Source: Anaerolineae bacterium
GTDB lineage: Bacteria > Chloroflexota > Anaerolineae > Aggregatilineales > JAFGMM01
DNA length: 64,000 bases
Reading direction: 5' to 3'
Assembly (NCBI GenBank): GCA_027494055.1
Contig: JAOSJO010000022.1
Coordinates: forward strand, 1-64,000
Of the stretch, positions 35,304-39,586 are shown piece by piece. Below the pieces are notes generated by a model. That model was not told the DNA's origin. It made no database searches and worked only from the letters and a program-made list of their open reading frames with translations. Position numbers and translations under genes: made by a program. Each line of letters starts with the position of its first letter. Within the stretch, counting starts at the first letter, position 1.

Positions 35304-37084
35304 CTACGCGCCCCCCGGCGCGACCTCAATCGCCTTGAGCACCAGTATCCAACCGGCGCGCATCCGCGCTTCGTCGTAGACCTCCATCGCGGGCGTGTCC
35401 GGCTCCGTATAGAGGAAGACCTGGATCGTGTACGTGCCCGGCGCGAGGTCCGGCGGCAACGCCAGCGGGCGCGGGTCGGCGAAGGCGGTCTCCGGCGTCA
35501 GCGGCCCCCGGTACGCGAACGGGCCGTCGTTCCGCGCGACCACACGGTCGGACCGGTCCACCAGGTGAACCGCAACTTCATAGTCAACCTCCGGCGCGCT
35601 GAGCACGGCCCAGTTGAGGGTGAGGTCCACCGTCGCGCCGGGCGTGTAGACCGCTTCGGGCAGTTCGTAGCGCATCAGCAGGTGGGGGGCGAAGTGGAAC
35701 GCCTCGTGCGGGTTGGGCGGCGGCGCAAAGAGGAACCCGCCGACCTCGAACGCCGAGACGATCCGCCGGTCGCGGCGCGTTTCCTTGAGGTACAGCGCGG
35801 TAAACGCGCTGATCTGCGTGGGCCACTCCGTCACCAGCCACACGCGCTCGTGGCCGTCGGTGGCGGCGCGCACAGCCTCCTCAAACGCGAGGCTCGGCGG
35901 CGGCATGGGCATCGCGTAGACCGAGGCCGGCTCTGGCGCGCCGGGCCAGCGGTGCAGGAAGTAGTACCGGAACGGCAGCGTGAACAGGTGCTCGCCCTGG
36001 TGGATGAGCACCGGCTCGCCGGGCTGATAGTGCTGCGCCATCTCCTGCACGAACGCGCGCCACGGGAACTTGTCCGGCAGCAGCGGGTGGCGCGCCGCCG
36101 GCCCGGTGAGCACGATCAGCGCGGCCAGCGCGACAGCCAGCGGCAGGCGCAGCCGCGCCAGCCCCGCCCCGACCAGCAGCGCCACGCCCGGCGCGATGAG
36201 GAAGATGTTGCGCGGCGTGTAGGCGGGGAAGGCCACGTTGAGCGCCAGCGTCAGCGCAGCGGGGAGGGCAGCCCACAGCGCCGCCAGCCAGACCCCGCCG
36301 CGCGCCGCGCGGCCCCGCATCGCGAGCAGCGCCCACGCCGCCAGCACGCCGAACAGCAGCCATTGCCCCCGCTGAGCAGCGTCGCGAGCGATTTGACCTC
36401 GGCGAGAGTCGTGGGGAGCGCCTGCGCCAGCCCGCCGGGACGGGCGCGGGTCTGCCACAGGAGGATGGGCAGCCAGGGCAGGAAGAACGCGCCAGCCGCG
36501 CACGCCGGGAAGAGCCAGGCCGCGAGCCGCCGCCGCCGCGTCAGCAGCAGGTGGGCGGCCTGCGTCAGCGGCGCGAGCACGCCGAAGTAGTGCGTGTAGA
36601 GCAACGCCGCCGTCACGCCGATGTAGAGCCAGCGCCTGGCGCGCGGTGTTGCGCCGCAGCCAGCGCGCGTAAGCGTACATTGAGGCCGTCGCCAGCAGCG
36701 CCATGAGCATGTACATCCGCGCCTCGCGCGCGCGTAGTACGCGACGAAGCTCGACGCGCCGAACACCAGCGCCGCCGCCACGCCCGCGCGCGCCGAGAGC
36801 CGGTCGGCCCCAAGCCGGTAGAGCAGCGCCATGCACAGCGCCGCCATCAGCGTGGAGGGCAGGCGCGCGGCCAGCTCCGAGTCGCCGGCGGCGTCAACCC
36901 AGAAGTCGAGCAGCAGGAAGTAGAGCGGGGGGTGTACGTCGTTGACGACGCGCGCCAGCGCGCCGCCGGGCGTGGCCGGCTCAACCGCCCACAGGCTCCA
37001 CGCCTCGTCGAGCCACAGGCTGTCGCGGGTCAGCCGGGTCGCGAACCACGCCGTCACACCCAAGATGACGACCAGCGCAAGCAC
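35304..37084 (-). CDS. GT39/ArnT-like glycosyltransferase membrane protein (frameshifts near 36370, 36640 and 36735)
   Basis: SLWLDEAWSLWAVEPATPGGALARVVNDVHPPLYFLLLDFWVDAAGDSELAARLPS is typical of GT39-like (PMT_2) proteins. Confidence 0.8.
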
Positions 37085-37212
37085 CGGCCAGAGCCGGGCG
37101 CGCCGGCGAATCGCCGGTAGCTTCCCGGAAGCTGCGGGCTTCTGGGAAGCTACAAAACAGGCCTGCCATTTTCAAGAGAAGGTGTGTATCAGCAGCGGCG
37201 CGGCGGCGGCGC

Positions 37213-37949
37213 TCAGTCCATGTCCCGGTCGTCCGGCGCCTCACCGTTGTTGTCGAGCGGGTCCAAATCGGCGGTGTCGTCGTCCCGACCCGCGTCCTCA
37301 TCGACATCGACCACGCCGCCCCAGGGCGACTCGCCAAGCGCGGCCTCGTGCTCGGCGACGACTTCGGTGTCGGTCTCGACATTCTCGACAGCCGCGAAGA
37401 TTTGCTCATCGAGCGGGATGTCAGCGTCTTCCTCGACGCCCGGTTCGGCGTCCACCGGTTCGGCGTCCGCCGTTTCGGAGGCCGCCGCTCGGCGGCCTCT
37501 GCGGCGGCAAAGGGCGCCATCTCCTCGAAGACCGGTGGAATCTCGCCGCCCTTCATGGTGATGGTCCCCTGGATGAACGCGCCTTCCTCGGTCGAGATCG
37601 AACTGGCTTCGATGTCGCCCCAGACGCGCCCGGTGCGGAGCAGTTGCACGCGCTGCCCGCTGACGTTGCCGCGCACCGCGCCGGCGATGGTCACGTTGTT
37701 GCCAGCGACGATGTCGGCGGTGATGCGGGCGTTTTCGCCGACGAGCGCGTTACCGTCAAGCTCAAGGCTGCCCTCGAAGGTGCCTTCGAGCCGCACGCTG
37801 CCGGGGGTGTAGAGGTCGCCGCGCATGAGCGATCCGGGGCCAAGCACCGTCTCAAACGAGACGGATTCGGGCGGCGGCGGGGGGAGTTCGGTAGGACGGC
37901 GCTCCTCGTCTTCGCCTTGTGCGTGCTTGCTGCGTCCGAAAAGACCCAT
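37213..37949 (-). CDS. Bactofilin (polymer-forming cytoskeletal protein) with acidic C-terminal tail (frameshift near 37500)
   Basis: GPGSLMRGDLYTPGSVRLEGTFEGSLELDGNALVGENARITADIVAGNNVTIAGAVRGNVSGQRVQLLRTGRVWGDIEASSISTEEGAFIQGTITM. Confidence 0.87.
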
Positions 37950-38091
37950 TTCCCGCATTACTCCTGTGATTTCCAGATGGTGCGCCGTGAATATACTCAG
38001 GTTCACGTGCGCTGTCAATTGGCTTTTGGCGCGCGGATTCCGGTTTGTGGTAGAATGCCCCCTGACCCTCCCGGCTTCCAGGAGAAGATGC

Positions 38092-38577
38092 GTGACCGAA
38101 GCGCCGCCCGCTGCCCCGCAACCTGACCCGACCGTCAGGCGACGATACGCGCGTGAGGCCCATCGCCAGATTTGGGCGCCAATGATCCTGGCGGCCTGTG
38201 GGCTGGCGCTGTTCCTGGTCATCCTCGTGATCGTGTTCAACCGGGGGCTGGAGCGCCAGTTTTCCATCGTCAGCGATGTGATGCTGGTGTGTTTTACGCT
38301 GCTGCCGTGCATCGTCGGCGCGCTCGTGCTGTTTTTGCTCATGGCCTTCGCGGCCTTCGGCGTCTACGCCGCCAACGGGCGCGTGCCGCACCTGTTCGCG
38401 CGGGCGCGACGCGGCCTTGACGCGGCGCTCGGCAAGGTGAACCGCGCCGCCGGCGTGGCCGCGAAGCCGGTCGTCGGGCTGAACGCGCGCCTGACGTATT
38501 GGGGGCGCTACTTCGACCGGATTACGGCCCCATTCACGGCGACTTCTGCCAACAAGGAGAGCGACTCTGATGAGTGA
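38092..38577 (+). CDS. Hypothetical membrane protein (2 TM helices)
   Basis: GTG start; IWAPMILAACGLALFLVILVIVF and LPCIVGALVLFLLMAFAAFGVYA. Confidence 0.6.
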   Translation: MTEAPPAAPQPDPTVRRRYAREAHRQIWAPMILAACGLALFLVILVIVFNRGLERQFSIVSDVMLVCFTLLPCIVGALVLFLLMAFAAFGVYAANGRVPHLFARARRGLDAALGKVNRAAGVAAKPVVGLNARLTYWGRYFDRITAPFTATSANKESDSDE

Positions 38578-38839: not shown

Positions 38840-39586
38840 CTAGTGCATCCCCGCCAGCTCCTGCACCCGGCGCTCAAACACCTGTGCATTCCACCCGGCC
38901 ATATCGCCCACCAGGTTGCCGCGCGCGTCGAAGAACCCGAACGCGGGTATGCTGTTGCTGAAGAAACCCCTGATTAGCGCCCATTCCTCGTCGCTGGCGT
39001 AGTCCGCATTGACATATCTGAACGCGATCACACCGGCGTATTGCTGTTCGGCCCTGTACACGACAGGGTTTGCCTGCTGGCAGACATCTCACCAGTCCGC
39101 ATAGACATACACGATCAACGGGCGCTGCTTGACGTCCGCTGGCGCGCCCTCCGGCGCGGCAGCCGGCGCGCCAGAGAGGGACGACGAAATGGTGTGGAGC
39201 GCCGCCCCCGCAACCAGGACCAGCGCCGCCACGAGCAGCGCAAGCCCGATCAGGCTCTCGATCTGGTCGCGGCGGGGCCTGTCGGTGGGCGCGGGGGGCG
39301 CGCCGTCCTGGGGACCTTCGGCGAGGCGGCGCTTGAGGATCGCCAGGGCTTCGCGGGCGCGGGGAAACTCCGGCTCGATGGCGAGCACGTTCGTGACAGC
39401 GGTGCACGCCTCCGCGAGGTCGGGGGCGACCTTGGCGTAGCGCCACCAGCCCGCCGCGTTGTGCGCGTCGCGCGAGAGCACGTGCCGCAGCGCGCGGCGC
39501 GCCTCGTCGTAGCGCCCGTCCTTGATAAGCTGGTCGATGCGGTTCAGGCTCATGGCCTGCGGTTCGAAGGGTTGGACCGCGCTCAT
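38840..39586 (-). CDS. Membrane-anchored TPR-like plus thioredoxin-like protein with in-frame TGA at the redox Cys position (candidate selenoprotein)
   Basis: ORFs 39089-39586 and 38840-39061 are in the same frame, separated by TGA at 39091-39089: ...PLIVYVYADW-(TGA)-DVCQQANPVVYRAEQQYAGVIAFRYVNADYASDEEWALIRGFFSNSIPAFGFFDARGNLVGDMAGW...; TM helix LIGLALLVAALVLVAGAALH. Confidence 0.6.
39052..39068 (-). promoter_or_regulatory. SECIS-like hairpin downstream of the in-frame TGA
   Basis: Minus strand CCCTGT-CGTGT-ACAGGG; 6-bp stem, 5-nt loop with G at position 2; stem begins 20 nt after the TGA. Confidence 0.4.

Follow-up and report, generated by a model that had tools for sequence, protein, structure and literature searches.

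The window, by which we mean the whole stretch of 64,000 nucleotides analysed here, comes from an Anaerolineae bacterium with an assembly of 5.7 Mb in 28 contigs, and it carries on its minus strand a predicted selenoprotein gene whose parts, together with the gene lying directly downstream, are as follows.

38840..39586, minus strand: predicted selenoprotein gene (TPR-TM-thioredoxin), ATG start and TAG stop, from the TGA read-through translation, Pfam and AlphaFold2
39320..39547, minus strand: TPR region, residues 14-89 (PF14559, E=2.3e-6; AlphaFold2 helices)
39197..39271, minus strand: transmembrane (TM) helix, residues 106-130 (AlphaFold2 helix; preceded by RPRRD)
38846..39130, minus strand: thioredoxin (Trx) domain, residues 153-247 (PF00085, Foldseek, AlphaFold2)
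39089..39091, minus strand: UGA read as selenocysteine (Sec) 166, first residue of UxxC (W-U-D-V-C), from the translation and the TGA at the same codon in relatives
39080..39082, minus strand: Cys169 (TGC), second UxxC residue, invariant in alignment A2
39052..39068, minus strand: putative bacterial SECIS hairpin CCCUGU-CGUGU-ACAGGG, from its fold, its covariation with relatives and its absence from Cys homologs
38945..38947, minus strand: Pro214 (SIPAF), Trx cis-Pro position by alignment, nearly invariant in A2
36981-38342, minus strand: bactofilin gene

When the frame from 39586 to 38840 is translated with the TGA as a residue, it yields 248 amino acids, and the only internal stop is this TGA at codon 166. 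The preliminary description had joined the two halves in one frame without an indel, and the translation reproduces this to the exact coordinate; Pfam and AlphaFold2 likewise bear out its succession of TPR-like helices, TM helix and thioredoxin fold. TPR_19 matches residues 20-53 of the joined protein. The PF00085 match (30.6 bits against a cut-off of 23.5) runs over residues 153-220 and covers the TGA, in agreement with the earlier placing of this codon at the first Cys of a WCxxC motif. The AlphaFold2 model has a confident Trx fold from residue 151 on (pLDDT blocks of 86-97, mostly above 90), in the order strand 157-162, helix 167-182, strand 188-193, helix 199-205, strands 215-219 and 225-230, and helix 234-247. 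Residue 166 opens helix 1, where the attacking Cys sits, and the best PDB neighbours found by Foldseek are nearly all thioredoxins (E=4.3e-6). The conserved Gly231 is retained and the proline of SIPAF, already proposed as the cis-Pro region, holds up in alignment A2. The protein thus combines U166-D-V-C169 with P214 at the cis-Pro position, as in UxxC thioredoxins, and has what a selenoprotein should have, namely an in-frame UGA, a conserved frame and a redox position for the UGA.

A TPR(-TM) N-terminus of the same kind occurs elsewhere in the order, in proteins whose remaining part is unrelated, and the window protein, with its TPR and TM helix ahead of an unrelated region, belongs with them. 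Trx-less TPR-TM proteins also exist in the family, such as the 160-aa one in L012, and the gene could accordingly be decaying or truly end at the TGA, leaving a 165-aa TPR-TM protein and an untranslated Trx remnant. We hold this to be very improbable, since the stop sits within the Trx fold, at the boundary of strand 1 and helix 1 in the AlphaFold2 model, the next 82 codons run without a further stop or shift, and the active-site Cys, the cis-Pro and Gly231 are kept along with an intact SECIS.

The hairpin is present as the preliminary description gave it, at 39068-39052, with a stem that begins 20 nt and an apical loop that begins 26 nt downstream of the UGA. According to the bSECIS rule, the stem has 4-16 bp, the loop 3-9 nt with a G within its first two positions, the distance from UGA to loop is 16-37 nt and the MFE is at most -7.5 (PMC13188914, Fig. 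2); the hairpin fits, with 6 bp, the 5-nt loop CGUGU and an MFE of -14.5 in a 51-nt fold. The argument drawn earlier from this rule holds only in part, as a loosely SECIS-like hairpin follows 387 of the 1570 TGA trinucleotides in the window (25%). Synonymous recodings keep a 6-bp stem in 10% of cases, and single-sequence folding-energy z-scores are unremarkable and do not discriminate. The hairpin taken alone, or the loose rule alone, is therefore weak evidence. A perfect 6-bp stem with a CGUG loop at the exact offset is found after only one of the 1570 TGAs, which is that at 39091-39089.

We then examined relatives of the gene. Among 61 genomes of the order, a protein search selected Trx-like genes with a TGA at the exact codon in G001 (L045, which belongs to the family of the window protein), G034 (L046), G024 (L047 and L048) and G017 (L020), each with a hairpin at the window's offset and the loop CGUG. 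When this search was combined with a covariance model, trained on six sites with the window sequence among them, 22 of the 61 genomes, its own included, had at least one in-register TGA site. Sec homologs and Cys homologs meet at one and the same codon; homologs ending before the Trx fold, which would have spoken for a shorter protein, were not seen. A search of 154 genomes of the order with the window protein revealed no close ortholog; at E<=1e-9 it returned only one other match, a Cys form. The Trx domains of the other Chloroflexota Sec-thioredoxins are about 17-38% identical to the window's, and in a Trx-domain tree, which has few columns, the window lies on a long branch with a placement that is not usable.

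Across six sites, the window's included, the helix is 94% paired, with 11 cells changed on both sides (0/500 shuffles), and the covariation score is 0.82, compared to 0.26 +/- 0.10 for shuffled and at most 0.19 for slid versions. Across 33 sites, most of which were picked by the covariance model, which favours structure, 94.4% of the positions pair and all six pairs are double-changed somewhere (37 cells, 0/500 shuffles). A DNA pattern that prescribed TGGTGA, TGY, the loop CGTG and some of the stem, with two pairs free as Y/R and one wholly free, was scanned against one genome per species (84,980 species). It matched at least 117 stretches, for which at least 80 loci are named; the matches listed are nearly all from Chloroflexota, with a few in records of Rokuibacteriota, Armatimonadetes and Actinomycetes, and they read W-U-x-x-C in frame with a Trx-like continuation. 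In the 78 distinct sites among the matches listed, pair 42-52 is CG in 63 and UA in 15, and pair 43-51 is AU in 42, GC in 35 and GU in one, with zero mismatches at either pair though these were allowed; the pair left entirely free is formed in 67 of the 78.

The stem also separates Sec genes from Cys genes. When rows are selected purely on protein similarity, the four with Sec (the window and three relatives) have 5-6 of the six pairs and the loop CGUG, the window gene having all six and the family loop. Of 21 Cys homologs, all have 1-3 pairs except L063, which has five (p=0.0008, for rows that are related by descent). Apart from L063, the Cys homologs have lost the stem. In L063/L077 (G003:C181), a Cys thioredoxin, the SECIS stem is almost intact (5/6 pairs), and this gene may represent a recent change from Sec to Cys.

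The preliminary description had pointed to selA, selB, selC and selD as the genes to look for, and all four are in the genome. The profile matches reach 538 bits for selA and 375 bits for selD, and tRNA-Sec scores 71.2 bits and is called tRNA-SeC(tca), anticodon UCA, by ARAGORN. In selB (L001), the wing domain (49 bits) and a GTPase part are encoded in two frames that overlap, a split that is probably an indel error in the assembly. The selD gene has itself an in-frame TGA, at CAGU: this SelD (L065) would carry Sec there, and its hairpin, GGCGCA-CGUGC-TGCGCC, has a stem beginning 26 nt downstream of the UGA and a loop like that of the window gene. Two further Trx-type Sec genes were observed in the same genome, one of the lipoprotein type with a perfect stem, ACCUGU/ACAGGU (L098, G000:C26:26101-26172), and one reading SNYULGC with a weaker stem (L238, G000:C22:716420-716491). 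Four weak covariance-model matches in this genome (L099, L237, L240, L241) have no TGA site within Trx-like sequence, and L239 and L242 were rejected as Sec sites, being ordinary WCGPC thioredoxins.

Could the TGA be a base-calling error for TGC or TGT, and the protein an ordinary CxxC thioredoxin? The assembly is indeed flawed, with selB split by a frameshift and several ABC_tran domains split as well. Its errors are, however, mostly frameshift-like, and among 141 ABC_tran matches in-frame TGAs occur almost only beside split domains. (One full-length ABC_tran domain, at G000:C22:414962-415375, has two in-frame TGAs, presumably from decay or error.) A Cys gene needs no hairpin, as the Cys homologs illustrate, and the genome has the Sec machinery and two more Sec-Trx genes. 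The error would also have had to strike the very codon that is Sec in relatives, with an intact SECIS behind it. Since the hairpin matches an element that covaries in relatives, which a wrong base leaves unexplained, we regard this explanation as very unlikely too. UGA-reassigned codes occur in some bacteria, but decoding of this UGA as Trp or by general readthrough has a negligible chance, because two Pfam-supported neighbours in the window, the bactofilin and ABC genes, terminate at TGA, in line with the earlier remark that TGA ends other genes here, the column holds Cys and not Trp in non-Sec homologs, and the genome has a tRNA-Sec(UCA).

In summary, the single frame, the TGA at the redox position, the covarying SECIS at a fixed distance and the complete machinery argue for a selenoprotein, and we consider it highly probable that the gene encodes one, with the UGA at 39091-39089 specifying Sec in a membrane-anchored thioredoxin. 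Sec insertion, as first proposed for this TGA, gains its support from the machinery, the hairpin and the TGA at the same codon in relatives.

SelB would bind the hairpin via the CGUG loop and bring Sec-tRNA to the UGA, and the full protein would be held in the membrane by one helix. The RPRRD preceding this helix would lie on the inner side by the positive-inside rule, which puts the TPR region probably in the cytoplasm and the Trx domain outside; this agrees with the N-termini of the relatives, mostly lipoprotein-like or TM-anchored when read by eye. Judging from the sequence, the protein is most likely an extracytoplasmic thiol-disulfide oxidoreductase in which Sec166 would attack substrate disulfides and Cys169 would resolve the selenenylsulfide. 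The genome has a DsbD_TM-type gene (CcdA/DsbD-type transporter), whose product could carry electrons across the membrane for the Trx domain and would probably serve its re-reduction. The TPR region may serve to bind a partner in the cytoplasm; the neighbouring bactofilin gene and the aldo/keto reductase gene upstream yield no functional hint. A transmembrane redox sensor, in which the outer Sec-Trx domain would read the envelope redox state and relay it through the membrane helix to the TPR region in the cytoplasm, is a rather unlikely alternative to the oxidoreductase. If it were true, Sec would do the sensing in a signalling protein instead of belonging to an enzyme, and in a sister architecture an FHA domain might relay the redox state to phospho-signalling.

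Other anchors were observed in the same kind of protein. An FHA-TM-thioredoxin(Sec) form occurs in several Anaerolineae (L048, L122, L138, L143, L163, L166, L180), where the FHA domain is backed by Pfam in L048 and judged from upstream sequence in the other six. L195, from an Actinomycetes-named record, joins by eye a Sec-thioredoxin to a rhodanese-like domain and a TM helix within a single frame. In seven Trx-like loci from genomes of the same order (L084, L106, L107, L108, L088, L115, L082), two in-frame TGAs give U-x-x-U ahead of a CGUG hairpin. U-x-x-U is known from Prx-like proteins; no Trx example was found in the literature examined.

With standard annotation, these genes would be truncated at the UGA. 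A 2006 survey (PMC1794560) counted only three selenoproteins in Chloroflexi, and two later reviews do not mention Chloroflexota (PMC13188914, PMC9312934). The TPR-TM, FHA-TM and rhodanese-TM Trx(Sec) forms are absent from these two reviews and from NCBIfam, where no tested form reaches a cut-off, that of NF041057 included, and titles and abstracts on Chloroflexota or Anaerolineae selenoproteins, outside subscription papers and preprints, hold nothing on such proteins. The window gene most likely belongs to an extensive group of exported selenium proteins in Chloroflexota, most of which have escaped annotation to date.

NF041057, the Rcas_1661 family of thioredoxin-like (seleno)lipoproteins (Rcas presumably denoting Roseiflexus castenholzii), resembles the window protein in being Trx-like, exported and of the UxxC type, and apparently occurs in the same phylum. 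The window protein has no match to it at E<=0.01, and the lipoprotein-type L046 scores 17 bits where 190 are required; the window protein also differs in having no N-terminal lipobox and a TM helix after its TPR region. NF041057 is DsbG-like in PMC13188914. Extracytoplasmic thiol-disulfide exchange is a likely common role with the thiol:disulfide interchange selenoprotein (PF13098, UxxC) and the DsbD C-terminal domain, but the window protein scores 18.1 bits against the PF13098 cut-off of 27, and although the DsbD model NF001419 matches it at E=2.6e-4, it lacks the DsbD membrane domain. With UxxC Trx (PF00085), a family of bacterial selenoproteins verified by experiment (PMC13188914, Table 1), it shares the fold, the domain family, the Sec at the N-terminal redox position and the SECIS just past the UGA, and is set apart by the TPR region and TM helix that precede the domain; against the TIGR01068 thioredoxin equivalog it scores 27.2 bits, with a cut-off of 96.8. 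Hence, the protein first described as a candidate new selenoprotein belongs to an established kind. The novelty lies in its TPR-TM-Trx(Sec) architecture and in how large the Chloroflexota set is, with its lipoprotein, FHA-TM, rhodanese-TM and U-x-x-U forms and one constant SECIS. The Sec codon, the SECIS offset and the CGUG loop are shared with the lipoproteins L098 and L118, the FHA-TM forms L048, L122 and L138 and the rhodanese-TM form L195, the anchors of which differ from the window's TPR-TM. Sec-thioredoxins anchored outside the membrane appear to be common in Anaerolineae and related Chloroflexota; the covariance model is ready for finding further ones, and the set is natural material for asking what role Sec has outside the cytoplasm.
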